64,000 nucleotides of DNA from Thiogranum sp. (GTDB lineage Bacteria > Pseudomonadota > Gammaproteobacteria > DSM-19610). The notes under the pieces are model-generated. The model was not told where the DNA came from. It saw only the letters and a program-made list of their open reading frames with translations, and searched no databases. A program made the position numbers and the translations under genes. The stretch is taken from positions 310,001-374,000 of the forward strand of contig JASBSS010000035.1 of NCBI GenBank assembly GCA_030148805.1. Direction: 5' to 3'. Within the stretch, counting starts at the first letter, position 1, and each line of letters opens with the position of its first letter. Positions 272 to 40,259 of this stretch are shown in pieces.

Positions 272-2970
272 CAGCCTGGCCGTACTGCCCGGTCGCGGTG
301 TCGCAGCCAGGCTTTCTCCAATTCTACCGCGAGGAACACCGCCAACCCCGCGCCCAGCGACAATAGCCAATGGAAGGGTTCCAGTGTCCGGGTCTGGAAG
401 AGCGACTGCAGCGGGCCGCTATAGGTGAACAGCAACTGGAACAGCACCACGACGGCCAGGGCGATCAGGGCATAACGGTTGCCCGTCAGGGCGCGCCAGT
501 TCAAGGAAGACGCCTTCAGGTAGCGCGTGTTGAACAAATAGAAAGCCTCGCCCACCACCAGCGTGTTGACGGCTAGGGTTCGGGCCAACTCGATCGACTG
601 CCCCTGCTCGCGTGCCCAGATGAACAGGCCGAAGGTCGCGATCACCATCAGCAGTGACACCAAGGTGATGCGCTCGAGTAATAATCCGGAAAGCAGCGAT
701 TCCTGCGCGCGTCGGGGTGGGCGGCGCATGACATCCTTCTCGGCGGGTTCGAAGGCCAGCGACAGGGCCAGCGTCACGGCGGTTATCATGTTCACCCAGA
801 GTATCTGCACCGGCGTGATCGGCAACAGGTATCCCAGCAACACGGCCGCCACGATGACCAGAGCCTCGGCGCCGTTGGTCGGCAGGATGAATAGAATCGA
901 TTTGCGGATGTTGTCATAGACGCGGCGTCCCTCCTCGACGCCGGCGACGATCGAGGCGAAGTTGTCGTCGGTGATCACCATCTCGGCGGCTTCTTTCGCC
1001 GCCTCGGTGCCCTTGCGCCCCATCGCCACCCCGACATCGGCGCGTTTGAGCGCCGGGGAGTCGTTGACGCCGTCGCCGGTCATGGCGGTGACCTGCGCGC
1101 GCGCCTGCAGCGCCTGCACCAGGCGCAGTTTGTGCTCGGGGCTGGCGCGGGCGAACACATCGGTTTCGAGCACCAGTTGCTGTAGCACCGTATCGTCCAG
1201 CGATTCGAGTTGTTCGCCGGTGATCGCCGTGGTTCCGGCATGGATACCCAGGCGCGCGCCTATAGCGCGCGCGGTGGTGATATGATCGCCGGTGATCATC
1301 TTTACCGCGATTCCCGCCTGGTGACAGGCGGCGATCGCTTGCTGGGCGTCCTCGCGGGGCGGGTCGGAAAAGCCGAACAGACCCAGCAGCGTCAGGCCTT
1401 GCTGGACATCGTCGAAGGCCAGCGAGCGGCAATGATCCTGCGCGCCGCGAAACGCGACGGCCAACACCCGTTGCCCTTGTTCGCCCAAGTCCTGTTGTTT
1501 GCGGTGCCAGTAGTCCAGGTGCAGTGGGCGCTCTTCGCCCTCGCAGCGTTCGCTGGAGCACATGGCGAACAACCGCTCCGGTGCGCCCTTGATATAGACG
1601 AACGCGTGGCCGGCATGATCGTGATGCAGGGTGGCCATGAAGCGGTGGGCGGAATCGAACGGAATGCTGTCATCGCGCGGCCATTCCCGGCGCTCGTGCT
1701 CCTCATCAAGACCGCTTTTGCGCGCCAGCGAAACCAGCGCGGCATCCATGGTGTCACCGTGCGGCTGCCACTGCTGGGCTGAGTCGCAATGCAACTCGGC
1801 GTCGTTACACAGCACGCCGGCGCGCACCAGCTCCGCTAGTCCCGGGCAATCGGATAAGGCTATCGGCGCCCCCCGGCTCAGTAATTCGCCTTCGGGGGCG
1901 TAACCGGCGCCACTGACTTCGACATCGCACTCGGCGTTCACGAGACGGGTGACCGTCATTTCGTTGCGCGTCAAGGTGCCGGTTTTGTCCGAGCAGATCA
2001 CGCTCACCGAACCCAGGGTCTCCACCGCCGGCAACCTGCGGATGATCACGTGGCGGCGCGCCATGGACTGCACCCCGATCGCCAGGGCGATGGTGATGAT
2101 CGCCGGCAGTCCCTCCGGGATGGCGGCCACGGCCAGGGCCACGCCGGCAAGAAACATCTGGTCCAGAGGTTCACCGTGAAGCGTCACCCCGAACACGAAG
2201 GTCAGGCCGGCGAGCAGGAGAATACCGGCGGTCAATATTCGGCCAAAGCGGGCGATTTCGTTCAGTAACGGCGTGGTCAAGGGGTTGACCGAACCTAGCA
2301 GTTCGCTGATGCGACCGACCTGGGTCTTCTCTGCGGTGGAGACCACCAGGCCCAATGCCTGCCCGTAGGTCACGAGCGTGCCGGAATAGGCCATGTTGAA
2401 GCGTTCGGCGACCGGTGCGTTTTCGGGAACGCGGGCGGTGGCTTTTTCCACCGGGAGCGACTCCCCGGTCAGTGCCGCTTCGTCGACACGCAGATCGCGC
2501 ACCCGCAGCAGTCGCAGGTCGGCGGGCACGCGGTCACCGGCCTCCAGCTGCACCAGATCGCCGGGGACCAGCTCACTGGCGGGGATCTGCCGGCGGTGAC
2601 CGTCGCGCAGCGCCATAGCCGAGAGCGACAGCAGATTGCGGATGGCGTCCATGGCACGTTCGGCCTTGCCCTCCTGGAGAAAGCCGATGACGGCGTTGAT
2701 CAGCACCACCGCGAAGATGACACTGCTGTCTACCCAGTGTCCCAGCAGGGCGGTCACCGCGCCCGCGACCAGCAGGATGTAGATCAGCACGTTGTGGAAT
2801 TGGGCGAGAAATCGCAGCCAGGCCTTCGGTCCCGGTGGCGGTTTCAGGGTGTTGGGGCCGTATTGTTCCAGGCGCCGTCGCGCCTGCTCCTGGGACAGAC
2901 CGTCGAGGCCGCTGTTGAGCTCTCGCAGCGCCTCTTCGGTGCTTAAGGTGTGCCAGTGGGGTTCGCGCAA
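271..2970 (-). CDS. Cation-transporting P-type ATPase (P2-type, Ca2+/cation pump family)
   Basis: This is an 899-residue P-type ATPase. It has an N-terminal cation-ATPase domain (residues about 5-70), TGES of the actuator domain near 168-171, PEGLP in transmembrane helix 4 near 285-289, the phosphorylation site DKTGT near 328-332, KGAPE near 461 and TGDGVNDSPALK near 631-642. PEGLP and the long C-terminal membrane block favour the P2 class (Ca2+/Mn2+ or Na+/K+-like) over heavy-metal pumps, which carry CPC. The open frame extends to a GTG at 3054. I chose TTG at 2970 because AAGGAG (2978-2983) sits correctly before it and the protein then begins REPHWHTLS, like homologues. Its stop overlaps the sixA start. 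The ion is not determinable from sequence alone. Confidence 0.88.
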   Translation of the reverse strand: MREPHWHTLSTEEALRELNSGLDGLSQEQARRRLEQYGPNTLKPPPGPKAWLRFLAQFHNVLIYILLVAGAVTALLGHWVDSSVIFAVVLINAVIGFLQEGKAERAMDAIRNLLSLSAMALRDGHRRQIPASELVPGDLVQLEAGDRVPADLRLLRVRDLRVDEAALTGESLPVEKATARVPENAPVAERFNMAYSGTLVTYGQALGLVVSTAEKTQVGRISELLGSVNPLTTPLLNEIARFGRILTAGILLLAGLTFVFGVTLHGEPLDQMFLAGVALAVAAIPEGLPAIITIALAIGVQSMARRHVIIRRLPAVETLGSVSVICSDKTGTLTRNEMTVTRLVNAECDVEVSGAGYAPEGELLSRGAPIALSDCPGLAELVRAGVLCNDAELHCDSAQQWQPHGDTMDAALVSLARKSGLDEEHERREWPRDDSIPFDSAHRFMATLHHDHAGHAFVYIKGAPERLFAMCSSERCEGEERPLHLDYWHRKQQDLGEQGQRVLAVAFRGAQDHCRSLAFDDVQQGLTLLGLFGFSDPPREDAQQAIAACHQAGIAVKMITGDHITTARAIGARLGIHAGTTAITGEQLESLDDTVLQQLVLETDVFARASPEHKLRLVQALQARAQVTAMTGDGVNDSPALKRADVGVAMGRKGTEAAKEAAEMVITDDNFASIVAGVEEGRRVYDNIRKSILFILPTNGAEALVIVAAVLLGYLLPITPVQILWVNMITAVTLALSLAFEPAEKDVMRRPPRRAQESLLSGLLLERITLVSLLMVIATFGLFIWAREQGQSIELARTLAVNTLVVGEAFYLFNTRYLKASSLNWRALTGNRYALIALAVVVLFQLLFTYSGPLQSLFQTRTLEPFHWLLSLGAGLAVFLAVELEKAWLRHRDRAVRPG

Positions 2971-3149
2971 TCGACTGCTCCTTCGGATTCGGTTGAGCGT
3001 CAGGGCGGCATGGGGAACCCAGCGCGAGGCCATCCGGATGGCGTCAGGATACACGTTTTACAGCGGGAGTGGGCCCTGGGACCGACCGCGCCCCGACGGG
3101 CTCGCCGCGCCCGTGCGCCGCTACCCATCGGCCATGCCCGATGGCGTTC

Positions 3150-4283
3150 TCAGATGAAGCTGGAGAGTTCGCTGCGGATGGTTTCGGCCAAATGCGTGGC
3201 GGCGCCGAGGTCCTCGCCCAGACAGGTGTAGTGGCCCATTTTCCTCCCCGGGCGGGCGCGCTGTTTGCCGTACAGATGCAGCTTGGCCTCGGCGTGACAC
3301 AGCAGGCGCTCCCAGGCGGGCGTGCCTTGCTCCCACAGATCGCCGAGCAGGTTGACCATGACCGCCGGCGACAGCAACCGGGTGGAGCCGGGTGGCAGTC
3401 CGCACAGCAGGCGCACCTGTTGTTCGAACTGGCTGGTGAGGGTGGCGTCGAGGGTGTAATGGCCACTGTTGTGCGGCCTTGGCGCCATTTCGTTGATCAG
3501 CAGTTGGCCGCTGGTGGCGTGGAAAATCTCCACTGCCAGGACGCCGCAATAGTCCATGGCGGTGGCCAGTTGGAGTGCCATGTCGGTGGCTTGTGTCGCC
3601 ACTTCGGCGGGTATATTGGCCGGTACCCGGGTGGTGTCGAGAATGCCATTGACATGCAGGTTCTGGCCTACCGGATAGGTCGCGACCTCGCCGTCGACGC
3701 TGCGCGCGAGCACCACGGAGATTTCCCGCGCCAGATCGATGCGTTCTTCCAGGACGCAGGGTGTTTCCTGCAGCGCGCGGAACGCCGCGCGCGCCTGCTG
3801 CGCATCGGCCACCACATACTGGCCCTTGCCGTCGTAGCCGAGTTGGGCCGTTTTCAGGATGGCCGGCAGGCGCAGCTCGGCGCAGGCCGCTTCCAGTTCG
3901 GCGGCGTTGCTGACGACGCAAAAGGGCGCGGTGGCCAGCCCCTGCTCGCGGATGAAGCGCTTTTCGCGGATCCGGTCGCGCGCGATCGCCACCGCTTGCG
4001 GCGAGGGCCGCACCGGGATGTGGCTGTCGAAGTACTCCAGCGTCTGGGCTGGTACGTTCTCGAACTCGGTGGTCACGGCGGCACAATGGGCGCGCATTTC
4101 CCGCAGCGCCTCGGCATCGTCGTAGCCAGCTTGCAGGTGGCGGTCGGCCAGCGCCCCGGCCGGGCTCTGAGGGTCAGGGTCCAGCACCCAGACGCGATAG
4201 CCCATGCGGCGGGCGGCCAGGCAGAACATGCGCCCGAGCTGGCCGCCGCCGAGCACGCCAAGAATCGCGTCGGGGGTGATCAC
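3150..4283 (-). CDS. purK: N5-carboxyaminoimidazole ribonucleotide synthase (PurK)
   Basis: This 377-residue ATP-grasp enzyme makes N5-CAIR from AIR, bicarbonate and ATP in de novo purine synthesis. The N-terminal nucleotide-binding motif [11 protein letters not shown] is followed by [21 protein letters not shown] (ATP-grasp loop) and the Mg/ATP-binding [12 protein letters not shown], all diagnostic of PurK. The start is GTG at 4283: the sequence GTGA is shared with the purE stop, giving a 4-base overlap and translational coupling. The open frame continues upstream of this GTG without family similarity, so the longer form is rejected. It forms a purE-purK operon, as in many proteobacteria. 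Confidence 0.95.
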
Positions 4284-25672: not shown

Positions 25673-25748
25673 GGCCAGGTAGCTCAGTTGGTAGAGCAGG
25701 GGACTGAAAATCCCCGTGTCGGCAGTTCGATTCTGTCCCTGGCCACCA
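25673..25748 (+). tRNA. tRNA-Phe (anticodon GAA), island integration site
   Basis: The 76-nt cloverleaf has an encoded CCA. The acceptor GGCCAGG pairs with CCTGGCC, the D-arm is GCTC/GAGC, and the anticodon stem GGGGA/TCCCC holds loop CTGAAAA (anticodon GAA). Its 3' part from 25704 is repeated exactly at 38219-38264. Confidence 0.96.
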
Positions 25749-25749
25749 T
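25704..25749. repeat. attL (46-bp core repeat in tRNA-Phe)
   Basis: The bases from the anticodon loop to one base past the CCA end are identical to 38219-38264. The tRNA gene stays whole on this side. Confidence 0.95.
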
Positions 25750-25834: not shown

Positions 25835-26878
25835 GTGGCAACAATTACAAGGACCCCTTCTAGCACATGGAAGGCCGTCATCCGCAAGCGCGGCTGGCCG
25901 ACCACAGTTAAAACCTTCCGCACCAAACGCGATGCCGAAGACTGGGCGCGGCGCACCGAAGATGACATGGTGCGCGGCGTGTACATCGATCGCGCGGGGT
26001 CGGATCGTATCCTGCTCAGGAAAGCGCTGGACCGCTACCTAAGTGAGGTGTCCTCCACCAAGCGCGAGAGCACGGCTTATGCCGAACAGCATAAGGCCAA
26101 AGCCCTGAAGGCCAAACTGGGGGCCTACAGCCTGGCCGCCATCACTCCAGATCTGGTCGCCGAGTACCGCGACGAACGGCTGGAGGCAGGCAAATCGCCC
26201 AGCACGGTGCGGCTGGAGCTGTCCCTGCTGTCGCACCTGTTCACCATCGCCATCAAGGAATGGCGCATCGGACTCTTCTACAACCCCGTCGGAAACATCC
26301 GCAAACCGGCGCCGGCCAAGGGACGCGACCGTCGCCTGACGGTGGAAGAGGAAAAAAGGCTCCTCAAAGCGTGTGACAAACACTCCAACCCGATGCTCGG
26401 CTGGATCGCGCGTATTGCGCTCTACACCGGCATGCGCACTGGCGAGATCAAATCACTGACACGCCGGCAGGTGAACCTGCAAAAGCGCACCGTGCACCTG
26501 AGTGAGACCAAAAACGGTTGCGCCCGCACTGCGCCCCTCACCCGCCAAGCTGCCGATGTCTTTCGCGCAGCACTGGCTCATGCTGTGCGCCCCATGAAAA
26601 CCGAGCTGATCTTCTGGGGAGAACCCGGTCGCGACGGAAACCGCCGACCCTATGAGTTTCGACCCGCTTGGCACCGCACACTGAGGGAGGCCAGTATCAA
26701 GGGGCTGCGCTTTCATGATCTCCGTCACGAAGCTGTTTCCCGTTTGGCCGAGGCCGGCCTCGGCGATCAGGAAGTCGCTGCTATCTCAGGCCACAAGTCC
26801 ATGCAGATGCTGAAGCGTTACACTCATCTGCGAGCCGAGGACCTGGTCGAGCGGCTGGATCAGCTGATGGGGCGGTAA
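25835..26878 (+). CDS. Island tyrosine recombinase / integrase
   Basis: The 347-residue phage-type integrase begins at GTG 25835. It has an N-terminal arm-binding region, a core-binding SAM-like domain (about 55-150) and a catalytic domain (about 165-345). All catalytic residues are visible: Arg201 (TGMRTGE), Lys226 (ETKNG), His294-x-x-Arg297 (HDLRHEA), His320 (SGHKS) and Tyr329 (LKRYTHL). It sits about 85 bp from attL, the usual position for tRNA-targeting integrases, and should catalyse the 46-bp att exchange. Confidence 0.95.
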   Translation: MATITRTPSSTWKAVIRKRGWPTTVKTFRTKRDAEDWARRTEDDMVRGVYIDRAGSDRILLRKALDRYLSEVSSTKRESTAYAEQHKAKALKAKLGAYSLAAITPDLVAEYRDERLEAGKSPSTVRLELSLLSHLFTIAIKEWRIGLFYNPVGNIRKPAPAKGRDRRLTVEEEKRLLKACDKHSNPMLGWIARIALYTGMRTGEIKSLTRRQVNLQKRTVHLSETKNGCARTAPLTRQAADVFRAALAHAVRPMKTELIFWGEPGRDGNRRPYEFRPAWHRTLREASIKGLRFHDLRHEAVSRLAEAGLGDQEVAAISGHKSMQMLKRYTHLRAEDLVERLDQLMGR

Positions 26879-29004: not shown

Positions 29005-29871
29005 ATGAGGGACCTGAACTACCAACTCAAACAACTGTGCCGCCAGTGCCGGGAGGGGAGCTATGCCACCCAGTCCAACCGGGAGCACCTGCTGACACTG
29101 GCGGCCAACGAACTCCATGCCCTCGGCTATCGGGGGATGACGGCGCGCTCCCTGAAACCAAAACACATAGAGGCCCTGGTCAAACACTGGTTCGCCGAAG
29201 GGCTCTCCATCGGGACCATCAAGAACCGCATGGCCGCGCTCCGCTGGTGGGCCAGGAAGGTCGACAAACAGAACGTCGTTGCCCGATCGAATGAGCACTA
29301 CGGCATCCCGGACCGGCGCTTCGTGACCAACGAATCGAAGGCGAAGACAGTGACCCGCGAACAGCTGGACAAGGTCCGCGACGAACACGTGCGCATGAGC
29401 CTGGAACTGCAGCAGGCTTTTGGCTTGCGCCGGGAGGAGGCCATGAAGTTCCAGCCGAGCTTCGCCGACCGGGGCGACCACCTGATGCTCAAGGCGAGCT
29501 GGACGAAGGGTGGCCGGGAACGGACCATCCCGGTCCGGACCGAGGAACAGCGTGATCTACTGATCCGCGCCCGTAATCTGGCCGGTTTCGGTTCGCTCAT
29601 CCCCAGCAACCGCAACTACGTCCATCAGCTCCGAGTCTATGAGGGCAATACCTGCCGGGCCGGGCTCTCCAAGATGCACGGCCTGCGGCATGCCTACGCC
29701 CAGAACCGCTACGAGGAGCTGACCGGGTGGAAGGCGCCGGCCGCCGGCGGACCCGATAGAAAGTCACTGACACCGGAGCAGCGCGAGGTCGACCGCGAGG
29801 CGCGGCTGACTATCAGCCGCGAGCTCGGCCACGAGCGCGAAGCCGTCACGGCGGCCTACCTGGGCCGCTGA
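29005..29871 (+). CDS. Second tyrosine recombinase (Integrase_1-type, phage integrase N-terminal domain)
   Basis: The 288-residue protein has an N-terminal SAM-like domain (about 1-95) with YATQSNREHLLTLAANELHALGY and SIGTIKNRMAALRWWARK, then a catalytic domain. Candidate catalytic residues are Arg142/143 (FGLRREE), Lys168 (WTKGG), His225-x-x-Arg228 (HGLRH), His276 (LGHER) and Tyr285 (AAYLGR), only four residues from the end. This matches the integrase family found inside ICEs, often away from att sites. The ATG is preceded by AAAGGAGA. A role in resolution or internal rearrangement is inference. Confidence 0.8.
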   Translation: MRDLNYQLKQLCRQCREGSYATQSNREHLLTLAANELHALGYRGMTARSLKPKHIEALVKHWFAEGLSIGTIKNRMAALRWWARKVDKQNVVARSNEHYGIPDRRFVTNESKAKTVTREQLDKVRDEHVRMSLELQQAFGLRREEAMKFQPSFADRGDHLMLKASWTKGGRERTIPVRTEEQRDLLIRARNLAGFGSLIPSNRNYVHQLRVYEGNTCRAGLSKMHGLRHAYAQNRYEELTGWKAPAAGGPDRKSLTPEQREVDREARLTISRELGHEREAVTAAYLGR

Positions 29872-29946: not shown

Positions 29947-30303
29947 CTACGGGTCGAACGTGCTCCGCAGCGAACCGAGCGGCCGCGGTGGCACCGCGCT
30001 CAGCAGCTTTGCCACCGACAGATCGAAGGCGCGCGCGATCTTGTCCGCCGTGCCGATCGAGGTGTTGATCTCCGCACGTTCGATCGCGCCGATCAAGGTG
30101 CGATTCAACCCCGCCGCCAATCCGAGCGCCTCCTGGGACCAGCGCCGCAGCATGCGCAGATAGCGGATATTGCTCCCCAGCACCTTGCAGATTTCTGGAA
30201 TCGGATGACTGGCGTCATAGGTTGATGCCGGTTCGTGGACCCAGCAATCAGGGGAAAAAGTGTCCGCCGAATAATCGGCGTAGCGATACGCGTGTGCGGG
30301 CAT
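29947..30303 (-). CDS. XRE-family transcriptional regulator
   Basis: This is a 118-residue protein with one lambda-repressor-like HTH in its second half: VLGSNIRYLRMLRRWSQEALGLAAGLNRTLIGAIERAEINTSIGTADKIARAFDLSVAKLL. The N-terminal 40 residues are Tyr/Asp-rich (AYRYADYSADTFSPD) and unrecognised. The start ATG 30303 follows a strong AGGAGG. An intrinsic-terminator hairpin lies upstream in its own 5' leader. It probably controls the island or itself. A broken relative of its C-terminus exists just outside the island at 38369-38584. Confidence 0.82.
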   Translation of the reverse strand: MPAHAYRYADYSADTFSPDCWVHEPASTYDASHPIPEICKVLGSNIRYLRMLRRWSQEALGLAAGLNRTLIGAIERAEINTSIGTADKIARAFDLSVAKLLSAVPPRPLGSLRSTFDP

Positions 30304-30341
30304 GGGTGTGCCTCCTGTCAGCAAGTCAAACAGTGGCCCAC

Positions 30342-30379
30342 AAAAAGCGGCCCCGGTCCGTTGCCGGACTCGGGGCCGC
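30342..30379 (-). terminator. Intrinsic terminator in the leader of the XRE gene (possible attenuator)
   Basis: On the minus strand GCGGCCCCG pairs with CGGGGCCGC around an inner GTCCG/CGGAC stem with a one-base bulge (30347-30379). TTTTT follows (30346-30342). It lies 39 bases upstream of the XRE start, and no minus-strand gene lies further upstream. A TATACA -10-like box is at about 30420-30425. The 30304-30638 gap holds nothing else that I recognise besides this leader and the start region of the divergent kinase-like gene. Confidence 0.6.
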
Positions 30380-30638
30380 CTGGAATACCCACGCCACCGG
30401 GACATGCGGATGCAGGCCCGGTGTATACTGGACGCAGCCTCGAGTCTTGCTCTGTTCAAGCTCGGGGTTAGTCGTTCCGGGGGTGTTGCTGCACCTTCGG
30501 GACGACGCTTTTCATGAGATCAAACGAACTATCAGTGTGGCGCCCGAAAAAGTCAAGCTGTGCTCTATATATGTTACAAGATCGTAGCGCGCCCGTCTGG
30601 GCTGCCGTCTGTGGCCTTCCGGCATAGGGATAACGAAC

Positions 30639-31235
30639 ATGCGTAAGAAACTGATATACCTAACAGGTGCTCCTGCCACTGGCAAATCCTCGGTGGGGCG
30701 ACGGCTAGCGCAACATCGAGATGATATCGAGTTCATATCTTACAGCACAGAATTGGTTGCCTATATTAATAGCAAGAGACAAGATTCCAAATTGAATGAC
30801 ACGAAAATTCGTGAGCTGTCCTCTCTTGCCGTCACTCCAGAAGACATCGAGGAAGTAGATACTGAGCTAGTTGGGCGATGTCGTGCAGAGAACAGGCGAA
30901 AGCATATTCTTATTGATAGTCATCCGGTAACGAAAGAGGCCTACGGTTTCAGAGTAACGGGCTTCCGGCTAGATGTTCTTCAGGCACTATCACCAGATTT
31001 GATCCTTTGTTTGTATGCGTCACCTGGCGTTATCAGTCAAAGAATACGAGCGGACTCTGGCGGGAGACCGCTTCCGGAGGCATTTGAACTCGAAATGCAT
31101 AACCAAACGCAGGCAAGCCTAGCTGCAAGCTACGGTATAATTGTCGGATGCCCCGTATACTTAATCGATAGCAGCAGGACGCTGGATATCGTAATTCAAG
31201 CCGTGCTCGAACGTTGCAAGTTAGATTCGCAATAA
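30639..31235 (+). CDS. P-loop kinase, adenylate-kinase-like (archaeal AdkA-type layout)
   Basis: The 198-residue protein has a Walker A GAPATGKS at 10-17, an ILIDSH segment (about 92-97) in the position of the AdkA IVDTH motif, LSPDLILCLYASPGVISQRI resembling the archaeal LNPDIIIIVETS stretch, and a basic lid-like region (RADSGGRPLP). It appears to be a nucleotide or nucleoside kinase of the AAA_17/AdkA kind. It is much AT-richer than the chromosome. A housekeeping role is unlikely in an accessory cargo, so a role in defence or modification is inferred. The substrate is unknown. Confidence 0.65.
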   Translation: MRKKLIYLTGAPATGKSSVGRRLAQHRDDIEFISYSTELVAYINSKRQDSKLNDTKIRELSSLAVTPEDIEEVDTELVGRCRAENRRKHILIDSHPVTKEAYGFRVTGFRLDVLQALSPDLILCLYASPGVISQRIRADSGGRPLPEAFELEMHNQTQASLAASYGIIVGCPVYLIDSSRTLDIVIQAVLERCKLDSQ

Positions 31236-31292
31236 GATATGTTCCATTTATTGCGTGAAGCTGCCGCCAATAGCGTACTACAGCGCAGTTGT

Positions 31293-32033
31293 CTACATTG
31301 GTATCGATAGCTGCGGCAAGGAAGCTGCGACGCTCGGATGGTATGAAATATTATTTTTTATCCGATCAATCTCATGTTTCCAGGCAACGACATCACCGAC
31401 GTGCGCAGCAGCAAATGCTCGGTTGATGTCGTTATAGCTGATTTCGATAGCCTTCGCTAGGCGAACCTGTCCCTCACCACAAAGATTCGCCTGGAACCCT
31501 ACTTCATATGGCTTTTCTTCCCCTGTATAGACTTCATCGCGCGCTACTACTGATGTGACTTGTGAGAAACCAACGGGTTTCCCAGTTCTCAAATTGCGCA
31601 ATTCGGCAGCGTTTAGCGTATTTCCCCGGTATTGGGTTAGCGATTCAGAGCTTGAGCAGATCAACGCGTGATGCGAGCGTTTTCGGCGGTCAGTTTCGGT
31701 GTGCCCTCTGCTTGTCAAAAGCGAATAACGAGGCAGCATGTGCTCTGACCCGTTTCGATCATAGTAAGTAAGCCAAAGTAGTAAATTGTTTGGGGACTTA
31801 TCTATTGCTTTCGGCTTGGCCCTCATGGCCGTAAAAACAACAACAGGATTGGCAACCGTACTTATGAGCTCGGTCATACTTTCACCTAAAGGAGTGCCTA
31901 CCCCCCAAGTGAAGGTACCACCGTTCGCTTTGCGCTCCACCTCTTTCCTTCGAAGAATCGCTTCAAGATCTTCGCCAGACTCAGCGCCCATTTTGCTCCA
32001 GCAAAATACACGCGGAATACCGTCGTGGTGCAT
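31293..32033 (-). CDS. Protein of unknown family (shares motifs with 34114-34680)
   Basis: I do not recognise this 246-residue soluble protein. Near the N-terminus it has GEDLEAILRRKEVERK then FTWGVGTPLGES (residues about 21-53). The same order occurs in the gene at 34114-34680 as ESLEDIIKRKQDE then IFWGYGGN. Both later show a hydrophobic strand followed by a helix and a G-rich turn (HHALICSSSESL here, RYAMVIGGLTED there). No transmembrane segment or known catalytic motif is seen. It is convergent with the kinase-like gene and divergent from the small HTH gene. Start ATG 32033; ATG 31991 would remove part of the first strand. Confidence 0.6.
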   Translation of the reverse strand: MHHDGIPRVFCWSKMGAESGEDLEAILRRKEVERKANGGTFTWGVGTPLGESMTELISTVANPVVVFTAMRAKPKAIDKSPNNLLLWLTYYDRNGSEHMLPRYSLLTSRGHTETDRRKRSHHALICSSSESLTQYRGNTLNAAELRNLRTGKPVGFSQVTSVVARDEVYTGEEKPYEVGFQANLCGEGQVRLAKAIEISYNDINRAFAAAHVGDVVAWKHEIDRIKNNISYHPSVAASLPQLSIPM

Positions 32034-32067
32034 AGCCTTGCCCCTAGCGAGATATGCAAATATGCAT

Positions 32068-32085
32068 TATTATAGTCAATAAATG
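32068..32085 (+). promoter_or_regulatory. -10 element abutting the start of the small HTH gene
   Basis: TATTAT (32068-32073) lies 9 bases before the ATG at 32083, so transcription would begin at or near the start codon. There is no Shine-Dalgarno sequence, which suggests a leaderless transcript. The 50-bp divergent gap also contains overlapping ATGCA repeats (32054-32067). Confidence 0.4.
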
Positions 32086-32424
32086 CAGAAAGTGCAAAGG
32101 CCAATTTTAGATATCGTAAAGGATCTTCGGGCGCACTATAGCGCGGCTGGAGTGTCGCAAACGGCTTATTCAGAGGCGTCAGGCGTACACCAGTCCACGG
32201 TTTGCCGAATGCTTGCGCCAAATTATCAACCGAGAAGGCTCTCGCAGGGCCTTCGTAAACTATGCGAGTATGCAGAGATAGAGATCTATATGCATTCCCC
32301 CGTTGATCCAAGAAACAGTAAAGATCTAATGGATGCATTAGAATATGTTTGGGACGGGACGGAGCGGCATTCGAAGGCGTTGGCCAGAGTAATAAGAGAT
32401 CTCGGCAAGCTGTCGTCATGCTAG
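32083..32424 (+). CDS. Small HTH protein
   Basis: This is a 113-residue protein. Residues 8-55 look like a phage-repressor-type HTH (ILDIVKDLRAHYSAAGVSQTAYSEASGVHQSTVCRML, then QPRRLSQGLRKLCEYAEI). The C-terminal half is helical and charged. It probably regulates the divergent unknown gene and the downstream metallopeptidase-PIN pair, whose first gene begins 33 bp after it. Unlike its downstream neighbour it has no visible ribosome site, fitting a leaderless message. Confidence 0.6.
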   Translation: MQKVQRPILDIVKDLRAHYSAAGVSQTAYSEASGVHQSTVCRMLAPNYQPRRLSQGLRKLCEYAEIEIYMHSPVDPRNSKDLMDALEYVWDGTERHSKALARVIRDLGKLSSC

Positions 32425-32457
32425 GTTGTTCAACAAGGGATAGCTAAGGAGGACGAA

Positions 32458-33477
32458 ATGGTGCGCAAGAATGATCCAAGCGACATCTTCAGGCTATTAG
32501 ATAGCGTCGGCCTCTCTAAGTCGTACGTTAGCTCCCTGCTTCCCGGCTGGTGGGATGACCAGGCGGCCAGCAATACAGCGGGGCTGTCGGAATTTAAGTT
32601 ACTGTTGTCTCGGAACCTTGGGGTTGATATTGAAGGGCTGTCGGCTGATGAGCCGGAACTCAAGTTTAGACTGCCCCACGTTCGACGACTAAAGAGAAGT
32701 GTCAAATATGACGAGACTCAGCTAACTCCCGCTGTGTCGATCAGTCTTTCTGCAGCTAGGATGGCTATTGCAGCATGTACAAAGGAATACCGCCCCCTCC
32801 CGTCTGCGATGGAACTACGAAAGGTAATTTTCGATGCTTACAAAGCAAAATACGTATCTCTGCGAGCACTGATACGCACATGCTGGGATCATGGGATTCC
32901 TGTTATACATGTCTCCGGCTTCCCGGACGGGATGCCAAAAATGGACGGGATGGTTGTCTCGATCAAGGAGAGACCGGCCATTGTTCTCGCCAAACAGACG
33001 CAATTCCAAGCTTGGATGGCCTTCATATTGGCCCACGAGATGGGGCATCTGAGTAATGGTCATTGCTCAAATGGGGAGATGTTGGTTGATGAGTCGCTTG
33101 ATGAGACCTCACTAAAAGAGGGCGAAGGTGACAAGGAAGAGAGGGAAGCCGACCAGTATGCATTGGTGCTGTTGGCAGGAGACGAAGAGCTCGCGATTGA
33201 CTTTCCCGGCACAATGAAGCCTAAGGAAATTTCGCGTTACGCAATGGATTATCATCGACAACATCGAGTCGATGCTGGGCATGTTATCCTGAATTATGCA
33301 TATCGCTCTGGTGAATGGCAAAGATCCATAGCGGCCCTGAAAGTCCTTGATGACAAGAAGAGGGCTATCCCGGATATTGTGCAGGCTATGATGCATGAAC
33401 TTGATCCCCAGCGTCTGTCGGATACGTCTTTAGCATTCCTTTTCAAGATGTGTGGCGTAAAAGCAGAAGCGGCATAA
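32458..33477 (+). CDS. ImmA/IrrE-family metallopeptidase with N-terminal HTH-like domain
   Basis: The 339-residue protein has an N-terminal region (about 1-80) resembling an HTH (IFRLLDSVGLSKSYVSSLL). A COG2856 zinc peptidase domain follows: HEMGH at 193-197 inside FILAHEMGHLSNGH, with the third ligand in EEREADQYA near 229-236. Such proteins cleave or derepress XRE repressors (ImmA) or act as antitoxins beside PIN-like toxins. A good AAGGAGG precedes the ATG. The next gene, 6 bp on, encodes a PIN-like protein, so the two form a tight pair, probably toxin-antitoxin-like. Confidence 0.82.
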   Translation: MVRKNDPSDIFRLLDSVGLSKSYVSSLLPGWWDDQAASNTAGLSEFKLLLSRNLGVDIEGLSADEPELKFRLPHVRRLKRSVKYDETQLTPAVSISLSAARMAIAACTKEYRPLPSAMELRKVIFDAYKAKYVSLRALIRTCWDHGIPVIHVSGFPDGMPKMDGMVVSIKERPAIVLAKQTQFQAWMAFILAHEMGHLSNGHCSNGEMLVDESLDETSLKEGEGDKEEREADQYALVLLAGDEELAIDFPGTMKPKEISRYAMDYHRQHRVDAGHVILNYAYRSGEWQRSIAALKVLDDKKRAIPDIVQAMMHELDPQRLSDTSLAFLFKMCGVKAEAA

Positions 33478-33483
33478 CCCGCA

Positions 33484-34113
33484 ATGCAAAAAAGTCTCGT
33501 TGACAACGATGTCGCACTGAAGCTCTCGCAGTATTTTCTTATAGACGAGTTTTTTCAGGTGTCTGGAGGACCAGAAAGTGTCTATATCTTACCGACGCTA
33601 AAGTTTCGCTTCCATTTGGGTGATGACCAAAAGGCGCTCAAATACACTAGGGGAGAAACGGAACTAGACACGCTGCGAGCGTTTGTGTCGAGCGTAAATG
33701 AGATAGACACTGAACCCTCCAACGCCCTGCTTTCCGAATTTACTGACATAGATGAAATTGACTCCGGCGAGGCTGTGTTATTCGCGCTCACGGCTAGTGA
33801 CGATAATTCGTTGACGGTAACGGGTGATAAGCGCGCATTAATCGCACTGGCGGGATTGGGTATTGCAAAAGGTGTTTCTGGGCGACTGAGCGGACGGCTT
33901 AAATGCTTGGAACAAGCAGTTGCGGAAATGCTAATTGCCTGCCATCAATCTGAGGTTATCGAAAAAGTTGCTGGGAAAGGATGGGACAGATCGCTACGTG
34001 CGTGCTTCTCGTCTCGAGAACCACAAGTGATCCTGGAAGGGCTCAACAGCTACTACCGCGATCTTAACAGAAACTGTGGTTATTTGCTGGCACCCTTCCC
34101 GCCATCAGGTTAG
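33484..34113 (+). CDS. PIN-like domain protein, probable nuclease toxin partner
   Basis: This is a 209-residue protein. The spacing of acidic residues matches a PIN fold: Asp7/Asp9 (SLVDNDVALKL), Glu96 (IDSGEAVLFAL) and Asp115 (TVTGDKRAL). PIN domains are Mg-dependent ribonucleases in many toxin-antitoxin systems. The C-terminal third is helical with no recognised domain. It follows the ImmA-type gene by 6 bp on the same strand and abuts the convergent 34114-34680 gene. The fold is inferred from pattern, not a full alignment. Confidence 0.65.
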   Translation: MQKSLVDNDVALKLSQYFLIDEFFQVSGGPESVYILPTLKFRFHLGDDQKALKYTRGETELDTLRAFVSSVNEIDTEPSNALLSEFTDIDEIDSGEAVLFALTASDDNSLTVTGDKRALIALAGLGIAKGVSGRLSGRLKCLEQAVAEMLIACHQSEVIEKVAGKGWDRSLRACFSSREPQVILEGLNSYYRDLNRNCGYLLAPFPPSG

Positions 34114-34680
34114 CTATTTCAAGAACACTGCATATGGTGCCATAAGTGGCGCATAAAGGCCGATATGCTTTATATCACCTGGGTCAGGTTCTTCCCGAGA
34201 CTCGACAATCTCAAAACAGCCCTTATCGACGCGGCCTTTGATATATTCGTTTCCAAGGCGCCCCCTTGATGGCCCGACTGCAACAAGCGCCTGCCTCAAG
34301 TTGAAGTCAAATTCATCTTCCGTCAGACCTCCTATGACCATGGCATAACGAGAACCCCGTACTTTGATGCCATCTGGTACAGGATACCAGGAGACTCCGT
34401 CATCAGAGTATTCTTGCGCCAACTCAGGTTCGGCATAATGCTTGGAGTTCATCTCGTGCATGACAAGGTGTACATGCTTGCCTTCCGCCTCGAAACTCCT
34501 GGCGAAAGGTTGAACTAGCTTTGTGGGATGGCAGGTATTCCCTCCATACCCCCAGAATATCATTTTCGCCTTGGCATATTCGTCCTGTTTGCGCTTGATT
34601 ATGTCTTCCAGGCTTTCACGTGCGTGAATGCCAACCTTCATGAAGATCACGCCTTCCCCAGGCATAATAAGGTCGTTCAT
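34114..34680 (-). CDS. Protein of unknown family (relative of 31293-32033)
   Basis: The 188-residue protein is not recognised. N-terminal features are VGIHARESLEDIIKRKQDEY then IFWGYGGNTCHP. A beta-alpha pattern follows (KHVHLVMHEMNSKH), then GVSWYPVPDGIKVRGSRYAMVIGGL, a VGPSRGR turn and a YIKGRVDKGCFEIVE strand. The ES-x-ED-h-h-x-R/K-K and F-x-WG-x-G elements are shared with 31293-32033. It is 3 bp after the stop of the BpsA-like gene on the same strand, so they form a two-gene operon. A conserved interaction or shared substrate is inferred. Confidence 0.6.
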   Translation of the reverse strand: MNDLIMPGEGVIFMKVGIHARESLEDIIKRKQDEYAKAKMIFWGYGGNTCHPTKLVQPFARSFEAEGKHVHLVMHEMNSKHYAEPELAQEYSDDGVSWYPVPDGIKVRGSRYAMVIGGLTEDEFDFNLRQALVAVGPSRGRLGNEYIKGRVDKGCFEIVESREEPDPGDIKHIGLYAPLMAPYAVFLK

Positions 34681-34683
34681 TGC

Positions 34684-35514
34684 CTACTCCAGTTTTACGA
34701 GTTCGTAAGAGTCATCCGTAGCTTTGCCATAGTTAAGGTCGGATAGCTCTCGTACATAATGAATCGTCAACGGATTGTTGCGACCGTAAAAGTTATTTAG
34801 CCTTTCTGTAGAAAGGCGTTCCGATGAGCCTGGTGCCATATTGGTGTCGTGGCGGCGAAATAAACACGTGCACGAGCGTAGGTCCGGCGCGTCATCTAAA
34901 TGGTATAGATGGAGTTGCGGTACCATTTCAGCCACAAGAAACCCCATGTCGGCTGCGCGGCGCTGACTTGCGCCGATGACTTCCTGAGTCCACGGTAGCG
35001 ATGGGTCGTCTGCTATGACGATTGCGCCTTCGGATTCGTTTTCGGTCGCTTCAATTCCACGTTCTAAGAATACAAAAACACTCTCACCGCCGTTACTAGC
35101 CCCCCAGGGTGGATTGGTGTAGAACGCATCAAACTTGCCAAACATTCCATCGGGTAAAGGATCAACAACGTTATAAAGATGTGCCGACATCTTGTCTGAG
35201 AACCCATATTTTTCAGCAAAGCGGATTACGGAGTTTACAATCCGCTCGTCAAAATCCAGCAAAGTGATGCTATTGGGGCAGGAGTTAAATATTCCCTGCG
35301 AGCCGAGATGCATAACGGATAGCCCGATCGCGTCACCGTCTCCGATGAATACTATGTTCTTGTTGTTGAATCGCTCAGCGATATAGTGAGCTTGAATGAC
35401 CATGTCAGCGACCTTCATGTAAATTTGGTCAAATTCACGTAAAGGTCTTGGTCGGTTAACAACAACGTCAGAAATAGCGTTTAGAGCTTCGCGTAGATCA
35501 AATTCCCTAGACAT
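34684..35514 (-). CDS. BpsA-like / class I SAM-type transferase with NPPWG motif
   Basis: The 276-residue protein has a Rossmann-type transferase core: VFIGDGDAIGLSVMHLG (57-71), LLDFDERIVNSVI (85-97) and FDAFYTNPPWG (128-138). The layout parallels the archaeal/Thermus branched-polyamine synthase BpsA (GDDDLTS, DIDER, DPP). Here the catalytic DPP is replaced by NPPW, the motif of N6-adenine/N4-cytosine and other amino methyltransferases. A Cys-rich stretch (LRSCTCLFRR) lies near 215. It could transfer an aminopropyl or methyl group. The target is unknown. It is the first gene of the operon with 34114-34680. Confidence 0.65.
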   Translation of the reverse strand: MSREFDLREALNAISDVVVNRPRPLREFDQIYMKVADMVIQAHYIAERFNNKNIVFIGDGDAIGLSVMHLGSQGIFNSCPNSITLLDFDERIVNSVIRFAEKYGFSDKMSAHLYNVVDPLPDGMFGKFDAFYTNPPWGASNGGESVFVFLERGIEATENESEGAIVIADDPSLPWTQEVIGASQRRAADMGFLVAEMVPQLHLYHLDDAPDLRSCTCLFRRHDTNMAPGSSERLSTERLNNFYGRNNPLTIHYVRELSDLNYGKATDDSYELVKLE

Positions 35515-35879: not shown

Positions 35880-37283
35880 ATGCCCAAGCAGGTTCCCCAG
35901 GCCGAGCTCGATGCTGTGCTCCAGGCGGTTGCCAGATATCCAGATGGGGTATCTATTGAGGAGCTCAGTGGTGCGCTGGAAATCAATCTTCCGCGCCGCA
36001 CCCTGCAGCGCCGACTGGCGTCGCTGGTCGAGAGAAATTTACTGGCCATTGAGAGGCGTGGTCGGGGCAGCCGCTATCGGCTGCCAGCAATAGAAATCGA
36101 AGTTCAACCTTCGCCTGGGGGCCTCGCGGTTACGGGGCGCCCAGCTCAAACCGAAGCTTACATACCCGTTTCCCGAGAGGGAGATATCATCAAACAGGCT
36201 GTCCGTGCGCCGATTCAGGAGCGTCATCCGGTGGGATACAACCGGGCGTTCCTCGATGATTACCGACCCAACGATACCTTCTACCTTCCGCCGGATGCCC
36301 GGGAGCGACTCCTGGAGTGTGGGCGTTCGCCGGATGGGGAGCGCCCGGCCGGGACCTACGCACGGCAGATCTTCAATCGCTTGCTGATTGATCTTTCCTG
36401 GAACTCCAGCCGTCTGGAGGGTAACACCTATTCGCTACTCGAAACGGAGCGCCTGCTGGAGCTGGGGGAGGTAGCTGAGGGCAAAGATGCGCTGGAAGCA
36501 CAGATGATATTGAACCACAAGGCCGCGATCGAGTTGTTGGTCGAACAGGCCGAGGAGGTGGGTTTCAATCGCTACACCATTCTTAATCTGCACGCTTTGC
36601 TTTCGGACAACCTGCTCGGTAATCCGCAAGCCTGCGGGCGCCTGCGGACTATCGGTGTTGGAATCAGCGGGACGGTATACCATCCGTTAGAGGTACCCCA
36701 GCTTATCGAAGAATGCTTCCAGCAGGTTCTTGATACCGCGGCGGCCATTAAAGATCCGTTCGAGCAGGCCTTTTTCGTGATGGTGCATCTTCCTTATTTG
36801 CAGCCGTTTGAAGATGTCAACAAGCGCGTTTCCCGGTTGGCCTCGAATTTGCCGCTGGTTCGGTTGAACCTGTGTCCGCTATCATTCGTGGATGTGCCTG
36901 AACGCGCCTATGTTGACGGTATTCTCGGAGTGTATGAACTCAATCGCGTCGACTTGCTGCGCGATGTATTCATCTGGGCGTATGAGCGTTCATGTGCGCG
37001 CTATTCGGCAGTACGTCGTTCGCTGGGGGAGCCAGATGCCTTCCGGCTTCGTCACCGCGCACTCATGGCGGAAGCAGTATCCGAAATCGTCCGCAACCGT
37101 ATGGACAAAAAGACCGCTACCGCATTCATACGGCGACGCGCTACAGAAAATGTGTCGTCAGAGGACCAGGCGCGTTTCGTCGAGGTCGTGGAAACCGAGC
37201 TTATGAATCTTCATGAAGGAAACATCGCACGATACCGCTTGAGGCCGTCTGAATACCAGGGGTGGAGAGAAATCTGGCACTAA
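35880..37283 (+). CDS. wHTH-Fic protein with degenerate Fic active site
   Basis: The 467-residue protein has an N-terminal winged helix (about 8-68), a central Fic domain and a C-terminal helical region. The inhibitory motif SSRLEG (S/TxxxEG) is at 176-181. The Fic core, normally HPFxxGNGR, reads QPFEDVNKR at 308-316. The catalytic His is replaced by Gln and the first Gly by Val, while Phe, Asn and Arg remain. AMP transfer is therefore doubtful, and the protein may be a regulator or use altered chemistry. The clear palindromic operator upstream supports a repressor role. GC content is closer to the chromosome than the preceding cargo. Confidence 0.85.
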   Translation: MPKQVPQAELDAVLQAVARYPDGVSIEELSGALEINLPRRTLQRRLASLVERNLLAIERRGRGSRYRLPAIEIEVQPSPGGLAVTGRPAQTEAYIPVSREGDIIKQAVRAPIQERHPVGYNRAFLDDYRPNDTFYLPPDARERLLECGRSPDGERPAGTYARQIFNRLLIDLSWNSSRLEGNTYSLLETERLLELGEVAEGKDALEAQMILNHKAAIELLVEQAEEVGFNRYTILNLHALLSDNLLGNPQACGRLRTIGVGISGTVYHPLEVPQLIEECFQQVLDTAAAIKDPFEQAFFVMVHLPYLQPFEDVNKRVSRLASNLPLVRLNLCPLSFVDVPERAYVDGILGVYELNRVDLLRDVFIWAYERSCARYSAVRRSLGEPDAFRLRHRALMAEAVSEIVRNRMDKKTATAFIRRRATENVSSEDQARFVEVVETELMNLHEGNIARYRLRPSEYQGWREIWH

Positions 37284-37508: not shown

Positions 37509-38027
37509 ATGCAGCTGATCCGATGCACCATGAAACTCCAGAAGGAAATGGGCCTGAAGCATTCCGACCTGTCTACTGAGGAATCGCACTTCTCGTACCT
37601 CGGTCCCTGGCACGCCAACCTGATTTACATGAACCGGCGCAAGTGCGTCTTGTTTGCCAACGACAAAACGCTGTTCAATTTCATTGTGCCGGATGTCTCG
37701 AGAGCAACGATTAGAGAGCTCGATAGATTGTTCAGGAGTTACCTGAGTTGCGTCCTTGCAGATGAAGGCCTATCCGAGGCCGATCGGGCCAGGATACTTT
37801 CAGAGTACGACCAGATCGGATTTGCGAATACCAACAGCAAGAGCGTGCTCGGTTCGATGAACGACCTGGCGTTTCATTACATGCACAACATCCTGGAAGC
37901 GGGCGGCGTGCACAGTCCTGCGGTGCCAGGGATCATCCGCCAACTCAATCGTATGCCGATGAGTGCAATCAAGGAGGTGTTCCCGATAGAGGCGTTGAAG
38001 GCGAGGTGTCAAAACGAAGTCCACTAA
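37509..38027 (+). CDS. DUF6933-like protein
   Basis: The 172-residue protein begins MQLIRCTMKLQKEMGLK and has WHANLIYMNRRKCVLFANDKT followed by a long helix (LDRLFRSYLSCVLADEG). This layout matches my recollection of DUF6933, a small family of unknown function found in accessory regions. The last part (SVLGSMNDLAFHYMHNI) is also typical. It is the last gene before attR. The preceding 225-bp gap holds only the hairpin and a doubtful 64-codon ORF. No catalytic residues are apparent. Confidence 0.6.
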   Translation: MQLIRCTMKLQKEMGLKHSDLSTEESHFSYLGPWHANLIYMNRRKCVLFANDKTLFNFIVPDVSRATIRELDRLFRSYLSCVLADEGLSEADRARILSEYDQIGFANTNSKSVLGSMNDLAFHYMHNILEAGGVHSPAVPGIIRQLNRMPMSAIKEVFPIEALKARCQNEVH

Positions 38028-38218: not shown

Positions 38219-38264
38219 CTGAAAATCCCCGTGTCGGCAGTTCGATTCTGTCCCTGGCCACCAT
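38219..38264. repeat. attR (46-bp core repeat)
   Basis: This is an exact copy of 25704-25749, the 3' end of tRNA-Phe including CCA, without the 5' half. It marks the right end of the island. Confidence 0.95.
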
Positions 38265-38584: not shown

Positions 38585-38694
38585 TTGGTAAATACTTCGA
38601 TGTTAATGCGCGCTTTTCGATAAAGAAACTATCTATTATTCGATATTGATGCTAAATTTCGATTAATTTTCGATCTCTGTGATAGATTTTCGAT
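38566..38694 (+). repeat. Array of seven TTCGAT sites upstream of the second Fic gene
   Basis: TTCGAT occurs at 38566, 38596, 38616, 38639, 38658, 38669 and 38689, mostly about 10 or 20 bp apart, in an AT-rich stretch. The last copy lies between the GTG (38679) and ATG (38697) start candidates, so ATG 38697 is the likelier start and the array is probably an operator. Confidence 0.6.
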
Positions 38695-38696
38695 CT

Positions 38697-40259
38697 ATGC
38701 GGCTAGAATTGGAATCGCCTGCCAGTTTTCAGGACAAGCTCGTTCCGAAGGGGGCGAAGCTTGCCGGTTGGGCGGCGCTTGTTCATGCGCTCGGTCTTCA
38801 GGCGCCGGTCAGGCACCCCAGCTGTGTTTCGCAGAAACACGTTCTGGGTAGCCAGCGAGAGGAAGGTGGTTTCCGTCTCTTCGACAAGCGCTACCAGCCC
38901 GGCGACCAGCTTGCCGATCATCTGACCTTTGCCCTGCGCCACGAAACTATCGACCTGCTGATATTGAAGCGCGCTTTTGAGGCGGTGCCTAAAGCCGCCC
39001 TGGAAGCTTACGTCCGATCCACGCCAACGGGCGCGCAGACGCGTCGCACTTGGTTTTTCTTTGAACTGCTGACCGGGCAGACACTGGACGTTGATGATGT
39101 GCCGAATGTCAAGGCCGTCGAGGCGCTGGACGCCAAAGTGTATTTCACCGGAAAGGCTACACTCTCCAGGCGTCACAAAGTTCGGGATAACCTGCTCGGT
39201 AGCGGTGAGTGGTGTCCCGTCATACGCAGAACGCAACAGCTTGAAGCGTTCACTGCGCTGGGGCTGGCGGAACGCGCTGCGGAAACCATCGGACGCACCG
39301 GGCAACACCTGGTCTCACGCGCCGCCAGTTTCCTGCTGCTGGCGGACAGTCGTGCAAGTTTCGAGATCGAAGGCGAGCATGCACCGCGTAACCGACTGGA
39401 ACGGTGGGGGCGGGCGGTGCTGCAGGCCGGCAATAACGCGCTCACGCTTGATGAGATCATTCGTCTTCACGGCGTCCTGATTGAGGACAAACGGTTTGTC
39501 TTTCCGGGGCTGCGGCCCGACGGAGTATTCCTTGGCGAGCGCGATCATCTCGGTGATCCCTTGCCCGAATTTATTGGCGCCCGACCTCAGGATCTAGAGG
39601 ACCTCTGTGCAGGTTTGCTCGCCGCCAATAATCGAATGCGCGATGACGGGCTCGATCCCGTCCTTCAAGCAGCGGCGACAGCCTTTGGTTTTATCTACGT
39701 TCACCCGTTCCAGGATGGAAATGGTCGCGTACACCGTTGCCTGATCCACCACGTCCTGGCGGAGCGCCAGTATACGCCCCCAGGGATGGTCTTCCCGGTG
39801 TCCTCCGTCATGCTGGATCGGATCGAAGATTACCGAACGGCATTGCAGAATCATTCCGCTCCCCTGATGGATTACATCGAGTGGCGTCCGACGCCTGACA
39901 AAAATGTCGAGGTGCAGAATGATACCGTCGACCTGTATCGCTATTTCGATTGCACACAGGCAGCGGAATTTCTCTATGCCTGCGTCCGGCGCACGGTCGA
40001 GCAGGATCTGCCCAGGGAGATCGAATATCTCCACCGGCACGATGAAGCCATGGCCAGAATCAGAGAGCTGATCGAGATGCCAGATCGACTGGCGCAGAAC
40101 CTGATTCTGTTTATTCGCCAGAATGACGGCACGCTGTCTAAGAGAAAGCGGGAAAAAGAATTCTCCGCGCTGACGGATGAGGAGGTTCATAATCTGGAGA
40201 CCATCGTTCAGGGTGCTTTCGAAGGCTTTGAAAGCCTGGATAAGACTGATCGGGTATAA
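38697..40259 (+). CDS. Fic-family AMP-transferase, intact active site
   Basis: The 520-residue Fic protein has the canonical core HPFQDGNGR near 336-344 and an inhibitory motif SFEIEG (S-x3-E-G) near 221-226. Fic enzymes transfer AMP from ATP to a target Ser/Thr/Tyr and are held inactive by the inhibitory helix until activated. The N-terminal 190 residues are an unrecognised domain (about 45-185: KHVLGSQREEGGFRLFDKRY, HETIDLLILKRAF). ATG 38697 is chosen over GTG 38679. It lies outside attR and so is not part of the island proper, yet it is accessory-like and flanked by a regulator remnant. Confidence 0.88.
   Translation: MRLELESPASFQDKLVPKGAKLAGWAALVHALGLQAPVRHPSCVSQKHVLGSQREEGGFRLFDKRYQPGDQLADHLTFALRHETIDLLILKRAFEAVPKAALEAYVRSTPTGAQTRRTWFFFELLTGQTLDVDDVPNVKAVEALDAKVYFTGKATLSRRHKVRDNLLGSGEWCPVIRRTQQLEAFTALGLAERAAETIGRTGQHLVSRAASFLLLADSRASFEIEGEHAPRNRLERWGRAVLQAGNNALTLDEIIRLHGVLIEDKRFVFPGLRPDGVFLGERDHLGDPLPEFIGARPQDLEDLCAGLLAANNRMRDDGLDPVLQAAATAFGFIYVHPFQDGNGRVHRCLIHHVLAERQYTPPGMVFPVSSVMLDRIEDYRTALQNHSAPLMDYIEWRPTPDKNVEVQNDTVDLYRYFDCTQAAEFLYACVRRTVEQDLPREIEYLHRHDEAMARIRELIEMPDRLAQNLILFIRQNDGTLSKRKREKEFSALTDEEVHNLETIVQGAFEGFESLDKTDRV

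Follow-up and report, generated by a model that had tools for sequence, protein, structure and literature searches.

N4-bis(aminopropyl)spermidine synthase (BpsA) is, by sequence and by fold, the described enzyme closest to the protein considered here. In the Thermococcus enzyme, Asp159 and Asp160 of the GDDD motif position the aminopropyl moiety of dcSAM, Asp225, together with other residues, makes the polyamine amine more nucleophilic, and the aminopropyl group is carried by acidic C-terminal residues (2026 review, PMC12979288). At the level of gene clusters, the combination of HTH, COG2856 and PIN proteins was proposed in 2009 as a three-component toxin-antitoxin arrangement (PMC2701414), ssDNA-triggered repressor cleavage has been reported for PprI and CapP (PMC10904395), and two PUA-like domains are encoded together with AAA_17 and XRE in (PIN)-GNAT-EVE operons (PMC7641849). 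The locus described here lies in a 64,000-nucleotide stretch of Thiogranum sp. DNA (contig JASBSS010000035.1, positions 310,001 to 374,000), which is called the window throughout and to which all coordinates refer. The original prediction was confined to a BpsA-like protein, here P1, and an adjoining protein, P2, and its interpretation is partly supported. Beyond it, P1 turned out to belong to a mobile, conserved gene cassette whose further products include a nuclease that resembles PIN and a peptidase of the ImmA type, and the whole has the appearance of a toxin-antitoxin or defence system that is as yet undescribed.

The P1 reading frame (34684..35514, minus strand) is real and encodes 276 amino acids from an ATG start, with the motifs GDGDA (residues 58-62), LLDFDER (85-91) and TNPPWG (133-138) in this order. 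The parallel with BpsA that had been drawn from this motif order was confirmed: P1 matches Pfam BpsA_C (PF01861) with an E-value of 8.2e-24 (84.6 bits, cut-off 27), phmmer against the PDB returned 2qm3 (5.8e-14) and the BpsA entry 5xnc (3.2e-12), and in the structure prediction that had been proposed as a check, the AlphaFold2 model (pLDDT 84.6) has the BpsA fold, the best seven PDB matches in Foldseek all being BpsA (E 7e-13 to 3e-12). The kinship of P1 and BpsA is far above chance level. Ranked below BpsA in Foldseek are generic class I methyltransferases, METTL5 and an RNA methyltransferase from an archaeon among them, and the matches also include small-molecule methyltransferases; METTL5 is likewise the next-best profile match after BpsA (E 0.05). 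According to the original prediction, clear placement among DNA methyltransferases or in a housekeeping family with a known role would have spoken against it. The nearest structures are instead BpsA and then these generic class I enzymes, and no clear DNA-methyltransferase placement was obtained by PDB sequence, profile or fold search. A PADLOC match to 'mad2' (2e-7) is confined to the shared methyltransferase core and was taken as generic.

Relatives of P1 were collected by searching one genome per species, which gave 52 loci, and the window protein was aligned with 40 representatives (47-68% identity, at least six phyla). In all 41 sequences G58, D59, G60 and D61, D87, F88, D89 and R91, and N134, P135, P136, W137 and G138 are invariant. 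The replacement of DPP by NPPW, noticed in the original prediction, thus holds throughout these relatives, and GDGD and NPPW are family-defining features rather than a local quirk, because they are invariant across 41 sequences and at least six phyla. P1 shares with BpsA (PF01861; 5xnc, 5xnf, 6j27, 2qm3) the catalytic-domain fold and the motifs RPxPLxxFDQxY, GD.D and LDxDER, and it carries in addition its own HxYHLDDAPDLxSC motif and a conserved N-terminal segment. The RefSeq name of P1, bis-aminopropyl spermidine synthase family protein, is probably misleading.

P2 (34114..34680, minus strand) is the 188-residue protein to which P1 had been said to be coupled. This coupling was borne out: P2 starts 3 bp past the end of P1 in the window, the median spacing over 42 loci is -4 bp, and P2 adjoins P1 wherever the contig extends far enough, degenerate loci excepted. 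As the original prediction had implied in calling the partner unknown, no matching family for P2 was found in Pfam, NCBIfam, PADLOC or PHROG. P3 (31293..32033, minus strand), a protein of 246 residues with no name in any family library used, is a distant paralogue of P2 (hhalign probability 97.9%, E 3.5e-13); no meaningful Pfam match was obtained for 44 members of P2 or for 42 of P3. Positions of the elements I-x2-R-K-x2-E and W-G-x-G are invariant across P2, P3 and a phage homologue of P2. YTH domains and the Lon N-domain belong to the PUA-like fold class, and both recur among the top Foldseek matches of the confident P2 model (AlphaFold2 pLDDT 91.6), at a weak level (best E 0.29, TM below 0.3). 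Profile comparison of P2 and P3 covered EVE and ASCH and gave hhalign probabilities of at most 1%, in a test so insensitive that EVE against ASCH fails as well; P2 was not retained as an EVE or ASCH protein in the absence of a profile match. A PUA-like reader identity is to be taken as a lead rather than a result. The PDB profile search with P2 yielded antibody chance matches only, and the viral structure library nothing.

The remaining genes of the unit are transcribed from the plus strand. A small HTH protein (32083..32424) is encoded by the first gene of an HTH-ImmA-PIN operon, divergent from P3; it has a weak Pfam HTH_31 match and homologues by phmmer at 25 loci, 24 of them aligned with the window protein. 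An HTH gene is present in the window and at about half of the loci; in several cassettes of actinobacteria and alphaproteobacteria it is missing or escaped detection. A search for an operator palindrome between P3 and the HTH gene revealed short repeats only. The following gene (32458..33477) encodes an ImmA/IrrE/CapP-like zinc peptidase whose HExxH residues H193, E194 and H197 are invariant in 40 members. It is related to the CapP and RmrA models, with matches to PADLOC capP (1.5e-7), PDB CapP (0.0037, profile search) and phrog_18577 (1e-65). The operon ends with the PIN-like nuclease (33484..34113), convergent with P2, in which D7, D9, E96, G114-D115 and D168 are invariant among 39 members and T113 is nearly so. 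Pfam PIN was matched by 3 of the 39 (best E 9.7e-4), which is weak support at the family level, and a PDB profile search gave no match. An accessory AAA_17 or adenylate-kinase-like P-loop kinase is encoded at 30639..31235 (Pfam AAA_17 1.3e-14); it has a homologue at 16 of 45 testable loci, on a side that varies.

The constancy of this gene set was tallied by profile searches over 58 loci, 45 of which were testable, having an unbroken P1 gene followed by 3.6 kb or more of sequence. P1, P2, the PIN-like nuclease, the ImmA-like peptidase and P3 occur together in 44 of these; at the exception, L015, P1 matches over residues 2-223 only. Clustering of all open reading frames at 52 loci revealed a fixed set of neighbours with flanks beyond that are not conserved, and the conserved unit comprises five to seven genes (30639-35514 in the window). 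In the standard order, P1 and P2 are followed by the oppositely oriented PIN, ImmA and HTH genes (read in that order) and then by P3 in the direction of P1. In a Pseudomonas-type variant (L002, L003 and plasmid L074), P1, P2 and the kinase gene run in one direction, P3 is reversed, and HTH, ImmA and PIN follow in the first direction; in an alphaproteobacterial variant, P3 lies inside the ImmA-PIN operon and HTH is undetected. Median spacing is -4 bp between the convergent P2 and PIN genes and 1 bp between PIN and ImmA. Pairwise distances of the families correlate (r 0.75-0.95), as expected of block inheritance.

The cassette was found in Proteobacteria, Cyanobacteria, Actinobacteria, Acidobacteria and Myxococcota, and P1 is rare: among 398 genomes sampled in the phylum it occurs in 3. 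Phyla are mixed in the P1 tree, where the window protein and one from Mariprofundus form a group inside a supported set of 14 rows that also contains Cyanobacteriota, other Pseudomonadota and Chloroflexota; the contig of the Chloroflexota locus (L004) ends after PIN, which cuts the cassette there. The cassette gives P1 a genomic home in which its partners stay the same in five or more bacterial phyla; among these partners are the P2 and P3 families, unnamed in the libraries used. Decaying cassettes were also observed: at L044:5992-6812 and L046:5992-6812 the P1 frames are broken, P2 is intact and the other partners are gone, P2 thus outlasting P1.

Parts of the cassette also occur on their own. 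In 12 of 12 prophage loci, ImmA and PIN were found without the other cassette genes; in L186 the pair lies between terminase-like and portal-like genes, as judged from reading the open reading frames. The prophage ImmA-PIN pair is likely a toxin or defence pair. P1 need not be an antitoxin, because ImmA-PIN survives without P1 and P2 in these 12 loci, and the candidate role of P1 as the obligate antitoxin of PIN is weakened. The pairs of the prophage contigs (L182-L193) fall into PHROG families 18577 and 15597, whose functions are both unannotated. HTH and P3 were found once as a divergent pair alone (genome G324, L137:7568-8890), with a C-terminally extended P3. P2 was found once without P1, on the phage contig L105 (IMGVR_UViG_3300031834_001588, 983-3366), where its homologue overlaps by 4 bp the gene for a 607-residue protein with LAGLIDADG and N6_N4_Mtase domains and an SPPY motif; a gene for a Gp23-type capsid protein adjoins this unit. 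L105, a single contig, gives independent support to the view that P2 likely works with amino-methyltransferases and that nucleic acid is a likely target. The combination of homing endonuclease, methylase and P2 on this contig is in itself unusual. Since its gene pairs are separable, the system is directly testable.

In the window, the cassette sits in a low-GC block and is carried as cargo by a 12.5-kb island that lies in tRNA-Phe. The left att repeat (25704..25749, plus strand) is the 3' part of the tRNA-Phe gene (25673-25748), and its exact 46-bp copy (38219..38264, plus strand) marks the island end; a tyrosine integrase (25835..26878, plus strand; Pfam Phage_integrase 2.7e-31) is encoded just inside the left repeat. 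In the same-genus genomes L091 and L092, similarity to the window stops at or just past the tRNA, and tRNA was the sole RNA family found between 25 and 41 kb of the window. Other genes of the region include a second integrase (29005-29871; Phage_int_SAM_2 / Integrase_1) beside an HTH_3 protein (29947-30459), a Fic-domain-like protein with an N-terminal HTH-like region inside the island (35880-37283), another just beyond the right repeat (38679-40259), where GC is still lowered, and between these two a DUF6933 protein (37509-38027; PADLOC PDC-S63 5e-20). Elsewhere, the cassette is carried by plasmids of Pseudomonas, Rhizobium, Sinorhizobium and Agrobacterium and by two contigs of viral collections, and the flanks of other loci contain integrases, resolvases and TniQ, together with single DISARM, BREX and type II MTase matches from a scan without background control.

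The chemistry of P1 was assessed residue by residue against BpsA, with the numbering anchored on GDDD and a PDB chain offset of 20. Asp159 of BpsA corresponds to Gly60 in P1 and Asp225, in DPP, to Asn134, both invariant in the 41 sequences, whereas Asp160 is retained as Asp61. The N-terminal domain of BpsA is missing, as P1 residue 8-10 aligns with BpsA chain residue 125-130, and most members have three to four acidic residues among the last 12 with no conserved run. The SAM carboxylate requires glycine at the motif I position that corresponds to Asp159, and Asn-Pro-Pro-Trp is an amino-methyltransferase form of motif IV; with its Rossmann fold, NPP-aromatic motif IV and motif I glycine, P1 has the structural features of class I amino-methyltransferases. 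The original prediction had left methyl and aminopropyl transfer side by side. Methyl transfer is now favoured, and SAM-dependent amino-methylation is the better prediction for P1, because of the changes of Asp159 to Gly and Asp225 to Asn, the absent N-terminal domain and the lack of a conserved acidic run at the C-terminus. If this reading is true, P1 would exemplify a polyamine-synthase fold turned into an apparent amino-methyltransferase, and it is probably such a converted relative. The opposite reading, in which P1 would still take the aminopropyl group from dcSAM and pass it to a base, polyamine or protein, the Asn/Trp motif altering the acceptor only, could appeal to the closeness of BpsA, the retained Asp61 and the RefSeq name; GDGD and NPPW disfavour it, as does the invariant loss of the residue essential for holding the aminopropyl group, and we consider it improbable. 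It is more improbable still, indeed hardly credible, that P1 is an ordinary housekeeping, small-molecule or protein methyltransferase present by chance. NPP-aromatic motifs occur in protein-Gln methyltransferases too, and the small-molecule enzymes among the fold matches would fit, but this explanation is already disfavoured by the rarity of the protein and by its location in the cassette in all but one of the 45 intact, testable cases. From its genomic context, a nucleic-acid target is favoured for P1.

Our preferred explanation, to which we give about an even chance, is a mobile writer, reader and nuclease cassette, similar in logic to toxin-antitoxin or restriction-modification systems, with P1-P2 as the methyltransferase writer. 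P1, a class I methyltransferase that may have arisen in the BpsA aminopropyltransferase family, would place the methyl group of SAM on an exocyclic amino group, nucleic acid being the most likely substrate, and P2 would provide target recognition. P3, whose gene stands back-to-back with that of the small HTH protein, would be the reader and regulator, recognising targets of the same kind and controlling expression, while the ImmA/CapP-like peptidase may act as the switch and the PIN-like nuclease as the effector. Absence of the mark, or activation of the peptidase by stress, would release the nuclease to cleave RNA, with growth arrest or cell death as the outcome, and the whole could function as a mobile addiction or defence cassette. 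Of this account, computation has established the fold and motif changes of P1, its tight coupling to P2, the homology between P2 and P3, the constancy and mobility of the cassette, its separable pairs and the catalytic signatures of peptidase and nuclease; SAM as the donor, the nucleic-acid target, recognition by P2 and P3, the sequence of events and the addiction or defence role are inferred. A narrower proposal, that of a self-contained RNA restriction-modification system in which P1, with P2 as a new recognition subunit, would mark host RNA, P3 would read the mark and the peptidase-controlled PIN protein would attack unmarked RNA or halt translation during phage infection, is doubtful. DNA as the target is unlikely too, yet deserves more credit than that proposal: P1-P2 would methylate DNA, P3 and HTH would read the state of DNA at promoters, and the PIN-like protein would act on invader DNA or RNA, in a restriction-modification-like or modification-sensing system. 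That the sole P2 homologue found without P1 accompanies a DNA methylase, that HTH-P3 exists as a divergent pair and that DISARM, BREX and type II MTase matches flank some loci would agree with such a target, but the nuclease resembles PIN, a family known chiefly for cleaving RNA, and P1 is without a recognisable target-recognition domain unless P2 is one. The cassette might otherwise be neither defence nor toxin and serve mobile elements as a regulatory or maintenance module, a repressor-peptidase switch with the modification genes as cargo. Peptidase-HTH switches do govern ICEBs1 and stress regulons (PMC2701414, PMC10904395), and the window has an integrase and att sites; this reading is nevertheless improbable, since the block occurs in unrelated flanks and is not tied to one element type, and ImmA-PIN is free-standing in prophages.

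Set against known systems, the writer, reader and nuclease cassette favoured here has no single counterpart among the anti-phage systems of PADLOC-DB 2023, where the matches were partial and at the domain level (capP, RmrA, mad2, VakA) and no model matched P2, P3 or the window PIN protein; no description of it was found in the open-access literature searched. For P1, the likeness to BpsA is offset by the absent N-terminal domain, the changes of GDDD to GDGD and DPP to NPPW, the lack of a conserved acidic run at the C-terminus and the location in a mobile cassette. With METTL5-type N6-adenosine and other NPP-aromatic methyltransferases it shares the motif I glycine at the SAM carboxylate and the NPP-aromatic motif IV, but its sequence is nearest to BpsA and it has its own HxYHLDDAPDLxSC motif and N-terminal segment. 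The CapH/CapP and PprI/DdrO repressor-peptidase pairs (PMC10904395) resemble the cassette in the peptidase family and the neighbouring HTH, although the similarity is remote and CBASS genes are absent. The (PIN)-GNAT-EVE operons with ASCH, AAA_17 and XRE (PMC7641849) likewise combine PIN, a modifying enzyme, two modification-reader domains (a role that P2 and P3 would fill by analogy), AAA_17 and HTH, with a mobile distribution; in the cassette the modifier is of the BpsA type rather than GNAT, P2 and P3 are not detectably EVE or ASCH, and an ImmA-type peptidase is added. The predicted HTH-COG2856-PIN systems (PMC2701414) also unite an Xre-like HTH with a Zn peptidase and a PIN protein within a single operon, and measured against them the cassette has the HExxH peptidase and the invariant PIN acids D7, E96 and D115, though the Pfam PIN match is weak; what the cassette adds to this arrangement is the constant P1-P2 pair and P3.
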